Virus record (IMG/VR): IMGVR_UViG_3300035660_000030
Location: 1 to 41,782 of that record
DNA from: a virus
Reading direction: 5' to 3' (one strand)
DNA length: 41,782 nucleotides
Under the pieces are notes generated by a model that saw nothing but the letters and a program-made list of their open reading frames with translations, was not told where the DNA came from and searched no databases. A program made the translations under genes and the position numbers. This document shows positions 3,485 through 32,822 of the stretch, piece by piece (positions within the stretch are counted from its first letter, which is position 1; the number at the start of each line of letters is the position of its first letter).

Positions 3485-3937
3485 CTAGATGCACTTGCCG
3501 ACAAGAATTGGTATTTCCTCTGTTCCGCCCGTGCTGCCTTTACATAGTGCCATTCCCAGAATGTAACTTGTTCCGCCGAACGCGATTGACTGTGCTACGC
3601 CCCATGTGCCGCAGTCCTTAACTGCCGCTACCGTTGTAGTGATGCTGTTCATGACCATACTGCCCATTAGGATGCTGTTTGCTGTGCCCGCGACCATCAT
3701 TTTGTAAACTCCGTAGAACAGCACCGGAATCGTGTCGCCGTCTGCAGCCGCCGCTCTTGTGGCAACTCCTATTCCGTCGCCTAGAACGGTGCTTGGCGCA
3801 ACCTCGATTTCGCCGTCTGTCTGCGTTGTCGTCACGGTGACGCATGACCCTTCAAGGATCACGGTTGACGCCGTGCATGGAAGTATGCATTTGAAGTCGA
3901 ATAATACTCCGTCTTTCTTGTTCCATCTATCAGTCAT
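3485..3937 (-). CDS. Capsid decoration protein (DUF2190-like)
   Basis: A 150-residue, mostly beta protein rich in G, T, V and A, with repeated short strands (GDGIGVATRAAAADGD, then VLFYGVYKM). It looks like the DUF2190 family of capsid spike or decoration proteins and lies between the two capsid paralogues. It would coat the outside of the shell. Family recognition comes from overall composition and the GVA...G motif, not from a search. Confidence 0.6.
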   Translation of the reverse strand: MTDRWNKKDGVLFDFKCILPCTASTVILEGSCVTVTTTQTDGEIEVAPSTVLGDGIGVATRAAAADGDTIPVLFYGVYKMMVAGTANSILMGSMVMNSITTTVAAVKDCGTWGVAQSIAFGGTSYILGMALCKGSTGGTEEIPILVGKCI

Positions 3938-12709: not shown

Positions 12710-13424
12710 CACTACTATGTACATGTCAATCGCACATAATAAGGATAGCATGATCATGCACTACACTACTGTACTACATCATGCGCTACTACACTAGGCA
12801 GGGCATACACTAACTGACAGGTGACAGTTTCTGCTGCACTAGCGCACCAAACTATTAAGACTCAAGACACAGCGTATGTACATGCACGCACAGCACTACG
12901 ATAAGCGTATATGCGCGCACAGAAGACCATCAAAGCACAATTCTGCGAGGACGCCGAAACGCTATGTTGAAAGACCATCACTATTTCTACGACGACGTAA
13001 ACACGGCTCTGATGATAGTTCAGTGACTCTGTAACCAAGACCACGAACAGCAACATCAACAAAGAAACAGATACACCACCCCTGATCCCGACAACACCAC
13101 TATCCGTAGTCGTACACACACAGGTAGATGGCCTTACCGTTGTTGAGGGTTAGGGCTGTTGTGGGTTTTCTGTGTTGTTGGTGTTGATGTTGCGGCGTTA
13201 GTGTGATGGTACGTTGTCATGGCGTTTGATGAGTGAGTGATGGTATGCTATTTGTTGTTGCTGTCTTTCTTTTTGTGTTGCCTAGTTAGGTTGATGCTTT
13301 CAGGCACCGGTGAAAGTGTTCACATGTTGTGGCGCATGATGGGTGCTTAGTGCAGTTCTTATTCTTTTTCTTTGAATGCCTGTTTCTCGTTGCTTCTATC
13401 CTCTTGTATTGTTATAGCGATATG

Positions 13425-13433
13425 TTTATAAGT
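13425..13433 (+). promoter_or_regulatory. TATA-box promoter of early rightward genes
   Basis: TTTATAAGT lies about 43 bases before the first early ATG (13472), consistent with a transcript start near 13453 and a short leader. Confidence 0.6.
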
Positions 13434-13471
13434 ATGTTGTGTATATAGTGTTGTTATAGGAATATGAGAAC

Positions 13472-13657
13472 ATGACAAGAAAATACGTGTACCATGAAGT
13501 CCTCACGTTCGTTCCAAACGAGAACCCCGTTGAGGCTGAAAGACCGAAATGCGATATATGCCAGGAGCCACCGTTTCAAGATGCTGACTTCAGCGAGAAC
13601 GGCGTTAACTTCTGTGCTAGGCACTATGCTGCTTATAGAAACCTGAAAGTGAGGTGA
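13472..13657 (+). CDS. Small zinc-finger protein, first early gene
   Basis: A 61-residue protein. CDICQEPPF and FCARHYAAYRN form a C2-CH-type zinc module in its second half. It is the first gene after the early promoter, so it may be a transcriptional or host-directed regulator. It is followed within 8 bp by the next gene. No family name can be given. Confidence 0.7.
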   Translation: MTRKYVYHEVLTFVPNENPVEAERPKCDICQEPPFQDADFSENGVNFCARHYAAYRNLKVR

Positions 13658-13664
13658 AAAAGAC

Positions 13665-14114
13665 ATGAATATGGAAGAGCTTAAGCAACAATGGAACGCT
13701 CAAGTTCACGTGTGGAGTCCTGATAAAGAAGAGAGGAAAAAGGAACGCTTGAAACTTAGACAGATAGAGCAACAGATGATCCAATTAATTTCGCTTAAAG
13801 CTGGAATGATATTCTATGAAAGCTGGGGTTATGATCAGACACAGAATGATTTTGCGGTGATCGTGGAAGTTAGCCCAACAAAGAAGACTGCCCTATGCAG
13901 AACGGTGGGTAAGGATAGAGTGGGTGATAACAGCGTTAAGCCAAATGTGGATTGGAAAGATGGAAAACTCTTTCGCCTAGTGGTAGGATGTTTTCACGGT
14001 GAGGCAACATTACGCGGAACTTACCCTTTTTGTGATGGTGGAACAAGGGAAGGTAGTTTCAGGCTTTATGAGAACTGCCCTGTCTATGAAACCCCTGAAG
14101 GCATGGGTCACTAA
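13665..14114 (+). CDS. Hypothetical protein with SWGYDQT motif
   Basis: A 149-residue protein. Residues 1-50 are a charged helix. The middle contains GMIFYESWGYDQTQNDFAVIVEV, close to the GDxxYxSWGYDQTNxDFYxV motif that I recall from many bacterial mobile-element proteins of unknown function. The C-terminal 50 residues have two cysteines in a CDGG/ENC context. The last codons and the stop codon form one side of stem I of the hammerhead ribozyme that follows, so translation and ribozyme folding compete for the same RNA. Confidence 0.7.
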   Translation: MNMEELKQQWNAQVHVWSPDKEERKKERLKLRQIEQQMIQLISLKAGMIFYESWGYDQTQNDFAVIVEVSPTKKTALCRTVGKDRVGDNSVKPNVDWKDGKLFRLVVGCFHGEATLRGTYPFCDGGTREGSFRLYENCPVYETPEGMGH

Positions 14115-14182
14115 ACCCCTGATGAGCCTATGGAACTTAGGCGAAACCACATAGTTTTTTTGTGGTCGGGTCCAAGAGGTGA
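14108..14182 (+). ncRNA. Hammerhead ribozyme (type I)
   Basis: Every conserved hammerhead core element is present. CUGAUGA is at 14119-14125. Stem II is GCCTA/TAGGC (14126-14130 with 14138-14142). GAAA is at 14143-14146, its last A pairing with U14166. Stem III is CCACA/TGTGG (14147-14151 with 14161-14165). UC is at 14166-14167, with cleavage expected after C14167. Stem I is ACCC/GGGT (14115-14118 with 14168-14171). After an internal loop it continues as TCAC/GTGA (14108-14111 with 14179-14182). The internal loop could make the tertiary contact with loop II needed for fast cleavage. It is open at stem I. It overlaps the upstream stop codon at 14112-14114. Confidence 0.9.
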
Positions 14183-14674
14183 AAGAAAGAGATTAAGAAC
14201 GTATGTGCAGAGAGTTTGAGAGCTCCAGTACGAAACCGTGCGGCAGCTTCTCGCTTAAACGCTAATGCAAGCCAGTGTTGCTAATGTACTAATGTTCGTA
14301 TGCGCACATCCGTGCAACTGTACGATTTTGGCTCTGTCTTCTGGTATCTTGGGCCTTCTCAAGGGCTTAACCGCGCCAGAAACTTTGCTGAAATCCCGAC
14401 TTTGAATAAATGCATCTGTATGTAAGAGTATATTGAGCAAAGTTCAGGTGTCAAGGATTCTTTCAGCGTTTCGGCGACGGGTTTTTCTTTCGTGCCGCAT
14501 GGGTGGCCTCTGGGGTTGTATGCAGGATCGCAAGGCGGTTAGGTTGCCATCTTAACTGTACTGCTCTAAGCCGAATGATCTTTGGCGTTTGAACGTAGCT
14601 TAGGCGTTTAGGCGACTAGGATGGCCTCTCTGCACGCCTCAAGGAACCCAAACAAAAACTTGGAGGTTGAAGAA
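14183..14674 (+). other. Non-coding stretch downstream of the ribozyme
   Basis: About 490 bp have no convincing ORF on either strand. It would be the 5' part of the RNA released by ribozyme cleavage. It contains several GC-balanced short complementary segments but no RNA family that I can name. It ends at the ribosome site of the zinc microprotein gene. It could be a long structured leader or a stable non-coding RNA. Confidence 0.35.
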
Positions 14675-14824
14675 ATGACTGAAGAAAAGATGGAGTGTTC
14701 TCATTGTGGCATATGTGTAACCAACAAAGCGTATGTACGGTTCTCAAAGGAAAGTAAATTATGCTGGCCATGCTACGAACTTAAATTTCCCAAGAAGGTT
14801 GAAGAGGGAGAAACGAAATTATGA
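14675..14824 (+). CDS. Zinc microprotein
   Basis: A 49-residue protein, MTEEKMECSHCGICV...LCWPCYELKF, with two CxxC pairs forming one zinc site. The start is fixed by GGAGGT at 14662-14667. An upstream in-frame ATG (14621) lacks such a site. The stop overlaps the next start (ATGA). Confidence 0.7.
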   Translation: MTEEKMECSHCGICVTNKAYVRFSKESKLCWPCYELKFPKKVEEGETKL

Positions 14825-30222: not shown

Positions 30223-30311
30223 GTGAAATTAAGGAAGGTTGGGGCTTTCCGTCAAGAAGCAACAAGGCACATTTCCTCTTGAGAAAGAGGGTGAGACCGT
30301 ATGCGAAGTAG
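30219..30311 (+). pseudogene. Remnant of GWGFP/KAHYF small zinc gene, frameshifted
   Basis: The 30-residue ORF MSEIKEGWGFPSRSNKAHFLL... matches the start of a small family that I recall as GWGFPxxSxKAHYF...SLC. The expected continuation (LEKEGETVCE) is found in the overlapping frame that runs into the transposase. A one-base slip near 30280 separates the halves. The gene is therefore probably broken, or fused by frameshift to the transposase N-terminus. Confidence 0.5.
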
Positions 30312-31207
30312 AATCACCAGTTTCGGTTTGCAAGTTCTGTGGCTCAGACAACATAGTTAAGAGAGGATTCCGAAACACTCAGAACGGAAAGGTTCAACGG
30401 TTCTTCTGCAATGACTGTAAGAGAAAATTCATTGTTGACGAAGGGTTTGAGAGAATGAAGGCCACTCCTGAAACCGTGACAGTAGCACTAGACCTATATT
30501 TCAAGGGAATAAGCATGAGAGCAATAGTTGACCACATAAAGCAGTTTTACGGAGTAGAGGTTAGCCATGTGGCGATTTACAAGTGGATAAGAAAGTACGT
30601 TGCAATGATGAAGAAATACTGTGACCAGCTAGTTCCGAAAGTAAGCGGAATATGGCACACAGACGAGATGGCATTGAACATACGCAACTTGGACAACCAT
30701 GAGAATCTGAGATGGGCTTGGAACGTGATAGACAACCAAAGCCGATATTGGTTAGCTACTCAGATAACCGAGAAACGAGAAATCGCGGATGCTAGAAAGG
30801 TTTTGGCTCAAGCCTCAAGCATCTCGCAAACAAGACCAATGGCCGTAGTGACTGATGGACTAAGAGCGTACCAAGACGCAATAACAAAAGAGTTCTACAC
30901 ACAGAAAGCCCCAAAAACACAGCATGTCAGAATCCCCAACATACGAGATAGATCAAATAACAACATGGTTGAAAGGTTGCATGGAACGATTAGACAGAGA
31001 AACAAGGTTATGCGAGGGCTAGATGATGAAGCGACAGCACAGACAATGATGGATGGTCTGAGAATCTACTACAATTTCATAAGACCGCACACAGCACTAA
31101 ACGGAAAAACGCCTGCACAAAAGGCGAATATCGAATCTGATGAAGCAAAGTGGATGTCTCTAATCAAGAAGGCAAGTGAACATCAGAGGTTTGAGACAAG
31201 TTCTTAA
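30239..31207 (+). mobile_element. tnp: DDE transposase with N-terminal zinc ribbon (IS6/IS240-like)
   Basis: A 322-residue protein: zinc ribbon (CKFCGSDNIVKRG...FFCNDCKRKF), helix-turn-helix (MRAIVDHIKQFYGVEVSHVAIYKWIRKY), then the DDE catalytic core with D in WHTDEM, D in VVTDGLRAY and E in NNMVERLHGTIRQRNKVMRG, ending YYNFIRPHTAL. All three acidic residues are present, so it may be active. The only available start is TTG 30239, inside the broken small gene. I did not find convincing terminal inverted repeats. It borders the defence segment downstream. Confidence 0.8.
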
Positions 31208-31216
31208 GGCGTAATA

Positions 31217-31246
31217 GGGCTCTTAATCAAGTATGGCTAAGAGCCC
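31217..31246 (+). promoter_or_regulatory. Hairpin over the methyltransferase start codon
   Basis: GGGCTCTTA (31217-31225) and TAAGAGCCC (31238-31246) are perfect complements with a 12-base loop that contains the ATG (31233). In DNA it may be an operator; in RNA it would hide the start. Either suits autoregulated expression of a DNA methyltransferase. Confidence 0.6.
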
Positions 31247-32822
31247 CTTCGAGTCTAACGTACTCTATTATGGAGATAATCTTGAGGTTCTCAGAAAACA
31301 CTTTCCAAATGAATGCGTCGATCTGATTTATCTAGACCCGCCTTTCAATAGCAAGGCAGACTATAACATTCTTTTCAAAGAATCAAGTGGCGAGGAATCA
31401 GCAGCTCAGATTCAAGCCTTTAGCGATTTTTGGCATTGGGACAAAACAGCAGAGAAAACTTATCTGGAAATACAAGAAGACCCGAATCTTGTAGAGATGA
31501 TTCAGTTTCTCAAGGCCCATCTGGGTAGAAATGACATGATGGCCTATCTTGTAATGATGACGATAAGACTTAGAGAACTCCACAGAGTTTTGAAGCACAC
31601 TGGCTCGCTTTATCTTCATTGTGACCCAACAGCAAGCCACTACTTGAAAATAATCTTGGACAAGATTTTTGGTTCAAAGAACTTTAGAAACGAAATAGTC
31701 TGGCAACGGTTTACTTTTCATGCAGATGCTCATAGATTTGGAAGAGTTCATGATGTACTGTTATTCTACACAAAAACAGATGATCATATTTGGAATACAC
31801 AATTCTCCATTTTTAAGGATTCCTACATTAAAAGTCATTTCACACACTCAGATAAAGATGGTCGAAAATACCAACTTGATAACCCAGTGGCACGTGGACA
31901 AGGACCACCAAGATACTTCAATGGAAGACTACTCGAACCACCACTCGGAACGCATTGGCGATGGTCTCAAGAAAACATTGACCGCTTAATAAAAGAAGGG
32001 GTCATTGTTTTCACTCGGACAGAAAGACCACGTGTAAAGCGCTATCTCGATGAAGCAAGAGGGCACGCCGCTCATTCTGTATGGACTGACATTCCGCCTA
32101 TTAACTCAATGGCAAAAGAAAGAGTAGGTTTTGAAACACAGAAACCAATGAAATTACTTGAACGTATTATCGTCGCTAGTAGTAATGAGGGCGATCTAGT
32201 TCTTGACCCTTTTTGTGGTTGTGGAACAACCATCATTGCAGCTCAAGGATTGAAGGAAAAGAGAAGATGGATAGGAATAGACATTACTCACCTGGCTATT
32301 TCGCTGATAAGGTCACGACTCAAAGAAATCCACGTTTTAGCTAACAAAGATTACAAAATTGTCGGTGAACCTGCTGATCTTGCTAGTGCGGTTGAATTAA
32401 TGAAGGTTGACCCAACAGGATACCAGTTTCAGTGGTGGGCTCTTTCATTGATAGATGCTAAACCTGCGGGGCAATCTGCTACAAGTCCACAGGGAAAGAA
32501 AGGTGCAGACAGAGGTGTTGACGGATGGTTAACTTTCAAAGAAAGCGATAGTCTGGATTTAAAGAGAATAGTTGTTCAAGTCAAAGGCGGTCATGTCGGG
32601 GCTCAGACTATTAGAGACTTGCTCGGAACAGTGGAATCAACGAAATCCGCAATGGGCATACTCATAACCCTGAACGAGTCTACAGAACAAATGAGGCAAG
32701 CAGCGATGGAAGCAGAATACTACGAATCACCTACATGGGGTCAAAAATACCCAAAAATCCAAATCTTAATCATTCCAGAACTGCTAAAGGGTTCTAAACC
32801 AATTCTGCCACATACACATTGA
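31233..32822 (+). CDS. DNA methyltransferase fused to Mrr-like restriction domain
   Basis: A 529-residue protein. Residues 1-390 form an amino-methyltransferase (N6-adenine or N4-cytosine): catalytic LDPPFNS (about 34-40) precedes the SAM-binding VLDPFCGCGTT (about 330), giving beta-class order. Residues 400-520 contain GADRGVDGWLTF...IVVQVKGGHVG, the D...QxK core of Mrr-type PD-(D/E)XK nucleases. It could be a self-contained restriction-modification enzyme, protecting the virus DNA and attacking rivals. A-rich codon use and lower GC than the structural genes suggest recent arrival. Confidence 0.85.
   Translation: MAKSPFESNVLYYGDNLEVLRKHFPNECVDLIYLDPPFNSKADYNILFKESSGEESAAQIQAFSDFWHWDKTAEKTYLEIQEDPNLVEMIQFLKAHLGRNDMMAYLVMMTIRLRELHRVLKHTGSLYLHCDPTASHYLKIILDKIFGSKNFRNEIVWQRFTFHADAHRFGRVHDVLLFYTKTDDHIWNTQFSIFKDSYIKSHFTHSDKDGRKYQLDNPVARGQGPPRYFNGRLLEPPLGTHWRWSQENIDRLIKEGVIVFTRTERPRVKRYLDEARGHAAHSVWTDIPPINSMAKERVGFETQKPMKLLERIIVASSNEGDLVLDPFCGCGTTIIAAQGLKEKRRWIGIDITHLAISLIRSRLKEIHVLANKDYKIVGEPADLASAVELMKVDPTGYQFQWWALSLIDAKPAGQSATSPQGKKGADRGVDGWLTFKESDSLDLKRIVVQVKGGHVGAQTIRDLLGTVESTKSAMGILITLNESTEQMRQAAMEAEYYESPTWGQKYPKIQILIIPELLKGSKPILPHTH

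Follow-up and report, generated by a model that had tools for sequence, protein, structure and literature searches.

A type I hammerhead ribozyme adjoining a stop codon and a candidate structured RNA family in a probable archaeal virus

Introduction

Hammerhead ribozymes (HHRs) of type I have been described in bacteria and phages, and tandem hammerheads are known in bacteria (Perreault et al. 2011, PMC3088659). The same study reported HHRs in the archaeal viruses HF1 and HF2. In this variant, HHphage, the core carries insertions near C3, and a helicase start codon follows 13 nt downstream. There is indirect evidence for its cleavage in vivo, and in HF2 a transcript 5′ end was located within three nt of the hammerhead cleavage site (PMC3088659). 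The term "stop codon" is absent from that publication. GOLLD and ROOL are large, ornate phage-borne RNAs that are highly structured, non-coding, and several hundred nucleotides in length (PMC12286853).

The HHR analyzed here is encoded in the IMG/VR virus record IMGVR_UViG_3300035660_000030, the whole of which (positions 1–41,782, one strand) is called the window. It resembles the bacterial and phage type I hammerheads in its core, its three stems and its open stem I, and tandem copies in operons are a further likeness, but the HHR of the window is joined to a stop codon, and downstream of it lies a conserved structured RNA of about 430 nt. Both HHphage and the HHR of the window belong to early operons of tailed viruses, archaeal in the former case and probably archaeal in the latter. 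The HHR of the window differs from HHphage in that its core matches the consensus and lacks the insertion close to C3 and stem I, a stop codon forms its 5′ edge, and a structured RNA follows. The structured RNA is similar to GOLLD and ROOL in size and character, but it matches no Rfam family at the gathering threshold, belongs to a probable archaeal virus, and is preceded by a hammerhead. Hammerheads of Bathyarchaeia (L237–L244) are of the same class, and most of them also have a stop codon adjoining stem I and a T-run in loop III, but they are associated with cellular genes and lack the structured RNA.

Results

The virus record and its relatives

The window encodes a terminase and a portal protein. 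In GTDB genomes, relatives of the terminase were found in Bathyarchaeota MAGs (49–66% identity) and in one Planctomycetota MAG (35%). The closest relatives in genomes are thus in agreement with the original prediction of an archaeal virus, and the host is probably of the Bathyarchaeota type. A host search with the downstream protein in genome contigs yielded no match. BLAST of the region against phage and plasmid records yielded no relevant match either. A 96% match in G084 comprised only 24 nt and was attributed to chance. Elsewhere in the window, one ORF (31233–32822) encodes both a DNA methyltransferase (PF01555) and, at the C-terminus, an Mrr-type nuclease domain (PF04471), and a DDE transposase-like ORF (PF13610) is present at 30239–31207.

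An HHR was found at the syntenic place in 3 of 59 terminase-related viral loci (L007, L008, and L030). None was found in 47 other loci with terminase relatives, many of which are fragments.

The hammerhead of the window

The features of the region are compiled in Table 1.

Table 1. Features of the region around the hammerhead (positions in the window)
Feature	Position	Strand	Basis
TATA-like element TTTATAAG, a candidate promoter for the ribozyme-bearing transcript	13425–13432	+	motif conserved in L007
Small ORF, 61 aa, homologous in L007	13472–13657	+	comparison with L007
Gene for the SWGYDQT protein (149 aa), which ends naturally in G-x-GH before UAA	13665–14114	+	PHROG 37844, E 1e-8
Possible distal stem I, UCACU/GGUGA, one U-G wobble	14108–14112/14178–14182	+	sequence
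Stop codon UAA, directly adjoining stem I; the block common to the window and L007 begins here	14112–14114	+	sequence; blastn
Type I hammerhead ribozyme	14115–14171	+	sequence, three-stem descriptor, fold, covariance model
Stem I, 4 bp	14115–14118/14168–14171	+	sequence and fold
Core CUGAUGA	14119–14125	+	sequence
Stem II, 5 bp	14126–14130/14138–14142	+	sequence and fold
GAAA	14143–14146	+	sequence
Stem III, 6 bp, 9-nt loop running into the U7 tract	14146–14151/14161–14166	+	sequence and fold
U7 tract, loop III; possible archaeal terminator	14155–14161	+	conserved run
U16.1	14166	+	sequence
C17	14167	+	sequence
Predicted cleavage site C14167/G14168	14167–14168	+	hammerhead anatomy
Conserved structured RNA of 431 nt with closing stem P1 (14205–14214 with 14626–14635)	14205–14635	+	alignment, covariation, alifold
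Best conserved hairpin domain, UUARCCGCGC motif	14324–14395	+	alignment and domain model
SD-like GGAGGUUGA, downstream of P1 and ahead of the following start codon	14662–14670	+	about 25–30 nt from P1 in all four viruses
Small ORF rich in cysteine, with two CxxC pairs, following the structured RNA; place not conserved	14675–14824	+	L007 and L008 have another gene
184-aa gene, which has homologues after the structured RNA in L007, L008, and L030	14943–15497	+	sequence comparison

A strict three-stem descriptor detected one HHR in the 41.8 kb window. Judged by its sequence, it is genuine and of type I: the core is complete, and of the three stems, II and III are closed by loops and I is open. 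All conserved core bases are present where they had been predicted. The three predicted stems pair as well; the distal part of stem I is possible, but its sequence is not kept in the relatives. At positions 14108–14182 the HHR fold has the lowest energy (-19.1 kcal/mol), and for the longer stretch 14104–14186 an alternative fold is better than the HHR fold by 0.7 kcal/mol. A candidate internal loop is present in stem I, as for a possible contact of loops I and II. A type III reading, following Rfam Hammerhead_3, was ruled out because positions 14110–14118 contain no complementary stem I hairpin. An alternative hairpin that includes the stop codon (GGGU/ACCC) is absent in L007 and not conserved, and it was discarded.

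Covariance models, which the original prediction had named as a check, did not yield uniform results. At the Rfam (release 15) gathering thresholds no hammerhead family was reached in the window; the best score was 22.6 bits for Hammerhead_3 (RF00008), compared to a cut-off of 48.5. This miss is uninformative, because Rfam at the same cut-offs also reported no hammerhead in viral loci with many descriptor-perfect HHRs. In contrast, an independent model was built from 12 hammerheads of other, unrelated phage and viral contigs, leaving out the window's own family, and gave 47.5 bits (E 7e-14) for the element. This was the sole significant match in the window, and the next-best match had an E value of 2.1. 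The single descriptor match in 41.8 kb and the low E value argue that the HHR is not a chance sequence.

The upstream gene ends directly at the ribozyme. Relatives of the SWGYDQT protein in L002 and L005 have the same G-x-GH-stop ending without an HHR, and therefore, the protein has its natural end here. The stop codon had been predicted to lie in the internal loop of stem I. Its fusion to stem I was confirmed, whereas the internal-loop placement holds only if the distal helix forms, in which case the first base, U14112, would be part of the wobble pair. Further upstream, TATA-like sites are present at 13425 and 13442, and a scan of 13465–14700 revealed no such site.

Hammerhead evolution in the related viruses

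The sequences of stem II differ in both arms between the window (GCCUA/UAGGC), L007 (GUCCC/GGGAC), L008 (GCUAAG/CUUAGC), and L030 (GACC/GGUC). Stem III is likewise altered in both arms among the four viruses, with the core kept. Loss of pairing or of core bases in close relatives, which had been named as evidence against a ribozyme, was not observed in L007 and L008, where compensatory changes in stems II and III are accompanied by an intact core. The results for L030 were mixed. The pairing of the stems is kept, but one copy has a core insertion, an extra U after A9, and the core of the other copy is broken. This second, degenerate hammerhead (L030:6810–6863, - strand; CU-UUGA, GACA) retains all three stems in a three-way junction and scores 30.5 bits. 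An HHR lies 240 nt ahead of it, and the structured RNA follows directly.

The U7 tract in loop III has counterparts in L007 (T7), L008 (T6), and L030 (T5). Runs of T5–T7 in stem-loop III were found in 9 of 11 viral and Bathyarchaeia HHRs compared to 4 of 81 phage HHRs, and they are missing from L253–L256 (see below). As the independent lineages are few, the tract is only a lead.

Stop codons at other hammerheads

The survey comprised two pattern scans of IMG/VR, both blind to the upstream sequence, and all other fetched loci. Among the matches listed there were 149 hammerheads, 137 of which have a closed stem III and an open stem I (tail-shuffled control: 8), and one stem II pattern alone was found in at least 120 IMG/VR stretches. 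The original prediction regarded hammerheads of type I as rare outside eukaryotic retroelements, which these numbers contradict.

Among the matches listed, 42 of 92 non-redundant viral HHRs (46%) have the end of an ORF of 50 codons or more at -12 to -6 from C3, and in 30 of these 42 the stop is at -8/-7. The control, CTGANGAG sites that are not hammerheads, had an ORF end in register in 6 of 145 cases (4%). In another 15 of the 92 listed HHRs the stop falls within the core or immediately beside it (-3, +1, +12, or +14). The adjoining stops among the matches listed are TAA (31), TAG (9), and TGA (2); TGA is the commonest stop in the heuristic ORF set of the window genome. TAR is also present in 17 of 35 listed HHRs without a long ORF ending there. 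The recurrence in 46% of the listed viral HHRs, compared to 4% in the control, and at gene ends in Bathyarchaeia (see below) shows that the stop codon register is real but not unique to the virus of the window.

Terminal hammerheads at gene after gene were found in L111 (seven), L140 (six), and L120 (five). Most HHRs in L111 (1–5000, - strand), L140 (1300–6200), and L120 (6000–8000) are at gene 3′ ends and overlap the stop. L066, L070, and L080 each contain one type III-like HHR with a closed stem I (near 3506, 1092, and 4645, respectively) beside several type I copies.

In Bathyarchaeia, 12 of 257 genomes had an HHR match. An in-frame TAA or TAG at -7 to -9, ending an ORF of 154–172 aa, was found in 6 of the 8 loci L237–L244; L242 has a TAA at -15, and in L243 no ORF of at least 30 codons ends at the HHR. 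Six loci (L237, L238, L240, L241, L242, and L244) constitute one family, in which the HHR lies between the gene for a small protein with a hydrophobic N-terminus and a second ORF, identified as a PF04185 phosphoesterase in the two cases tested. A different layout was found in four genomes of the phylum Thermoproteota (L253–L256), where the HHR lies 17–27 nt after a TGA stop and 21–31 nt before the next start (ORF of 209–230 aa), and the A-rich loop is kept without a stop codon. Thus, there is more than one HHR layout in archaea.

The conserved structured RNA

A non-coding stretch had been predicted downstream of the hammerhead. It was found to hold a conserved structured RNA, which in L007, L008, and L030 is 433, 426, and 426 nt long (range in the four viruses, 426–433). 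The arms of P1 are GUGCAGAGAG/CUCUCUGCAC in the window, UUGCAGAGAG/CUCUCUGCAA in L007, ACACGGGGAA/UUCCCCGUGU in L008, and UUUGCAGGUGC/GCACCUGCAAA in L030. In a three-sequence alignment, both-sided changes occurred in 47 of 140 pairs, compared to 21.8 +/- 3.3 in shuffles and 4–7 with slid partners, controls that flatter the structure because it was derived from the same three sequences. The alifold energy was -233.7 versus -151.8 +/- 7.4 for 60 column-shuffled alignments (z about -11). The reverse strand folded less well (-197.2), which points to an RNA that is read from the + strand. ORFs inside the structured RNA are short and not common to the relatives.

No family matched the structured RNA in an Rfam search at gathering thresholds, which included GOLLD, ROOL, group I and II introns, and RNase P, nor did the L030 and L008 copies have a match in a looser E-value search. 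Matches of the window RNA to mir-87 were far below the cut-off, occurred on both strands, and were attributed to chance. Among the loci searched, a model of the best domain matched the four viruses and no others. In 257 Bathyarchaeia genomes no homologue was accepted: the best distant match (L246) is inside a 567-aa ORF and was rejected, and the second (L247) scored 26 bits. At the 3′ end of the structured RNA neither a processing signal nor a terminator was found, and a second HHR bounding this side, as in tandem arrays, was detected in the window neither by the descriptor nor by the covariance model. Taken together, the sequence comparisons make the RNA of about 430 nt a candidate for a new structured RNA family in archaeal viruses.

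The block from stop to start

A blastn comparison of the window with L007 yielded a single block (14112–14678, 71%), which extends from the first base of the stop codon to just inside the next start. The 149-aa gene to its left has no similarity to the 150-aa gene of L007, and the gene to its right also differs. Further upstream, region 13362–13652 is again homologous to L007 (78%). The zinc microprotein genes, which had been predicted to follow the non-coding RNA, are not a conserved part of the unit, as L007 and L008 carry another gene there.

Discussion

We infer that the hammerhead is catalytically intact and predict self-cleavage after C17. The best explanation, which we consider probable, is that the region is co-transcribed and that cleavage after C14167 detaches the upstream mRNA from a downstream message that has the structured RNA at its head. 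One RNA would be transcribed across the region from a promoter near 13425, and the intact core and the covariation suggest that the hammerhead would cut it after C14167. The 5′ product would be the mRNA of two small genes, ending 53 nt past the stop in two hairpins and a 2′,3′-cyclic phosphate. The 3′ product would start with a 5′-OH, enter the closed structured RNA of about 430 nt about 37 nt further on, and continue with the SD motif and the next start codon. The ribozyme would thus split the operon and give the structured RNA a defined 5′ end, and the latter may serve as a leader for the downstream message or be released as a non-coding RNA. With the stop codon directly before stem I, a terminating ribosome would, by geometry and general knowledge, cover the core, and cutting should therefore follow translation. 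In favor of this explanation are the E value of the independent model, the compensatory changes in stems II and III of L007 and L008, the covariation and alifold energy of the structured RNA, the homology block bounded by stop and start codons amid unrelated genes, the lack of TATA-like sites within 13465–14700, the SD-like motif after P1 in all four viruses, and the transcript 5′ end in HF2. Three points speak against it, namely, the structured RNA, for which no 3′ processing signal was found, the core insertion and the broken second copy in L030, and the UAR, which may be loop I material and not a ribosome sensor, because TAR also occurs at HHRs where no long ORF ends.

The latter point leads to a reading in which the register has no regulatory meaning: tertiary contact would need an A-rich, UAR-like loop, which compact genomes reuse as a stop. 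The dominance of TAA and TAG over TGA at the listed HHRs, in spite of the frequency of TGA in the genome's ORF set, their TAR triplets without a long ORF end, and the stop-less A-rich loops of L253–L256 all agree with it. Taken alone, it does not explain why 46% of the listed viral HHRs are exactly at gene ends, or why there are arrays with one HHR per gene. We judge its chances to be just short of even and about as good as those of true gating; both can hold, and it is compatible with the best explanation. The structured RNA might also be free-standing, e.g., a scaffold or a host-targeting RNA, with the HHR only trimming its 5′ end and the downstream gene incidental. Its near-constant length and P1 closure in four divergent viruses and the varying gene after it are in line with this possibility, which we nevertheless regard as rather unlikely, since its 3′ end has no terminator or second ribozyme and the SD-like motif at a similar distance from P1 in all four viruses is expected of a leader.

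Three further possibilities concern the element as such. The U-tract in loop III might end most transcripts before the ribozyme forms, so that the HHR would cut only read-through RNA. The enrichment of T-runs in viral and Bathyarchaeia HHRs and the retention of the tract in L008 despite changes in both arms of stem III fit such a role, which is unlikely given the few independent lineages and the absence of the tract in L253–L256. A main role of the block in gene shuffling, as a mobile or recombination module, would account for the sharp homology edges at the stop and start codons and the unrelated flanking genes in L007; it is quite improbable, because the block is single-copy in the records searched, is tied to no integrase or end repeats, and is syntenic in all four viruses. 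A chance or decayed, functionless sequence is hardly credible. The missed Rfam threshold and the degenerate copy in L030 are outweighed by the E value of the independent model, the compensatory evolution in syntenic relatives, and the intact core in the window, L007, and L008.

A wider model, doubtful as a whole, can be based on the same comparisons. Stop codon, hammerhead, and U-tract would be a composite gene-end element common to Bathyarchaeal viruses and the hosts they infect; cutting would be gated by the release of the ribosome, and the U-tract would end those transcripts that are not read through; here, the element would launch a new class of RNAs of about 430 nt with a function of its own. 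In a literature search that covered few subscription journals, no report on the register or on the structured RNA was found, and the novelty of both is provisional.

The recurrent fusion to stop codons, found in 42 of 92 non-redundant viral HHRs among the matches listed, bears on the biological purpose of prokaryotic hammerheads. Such fusions, with up to seven in one run of genes, lead to the testable idea that self-cleavage may be a translation-linked processing of gene ends.
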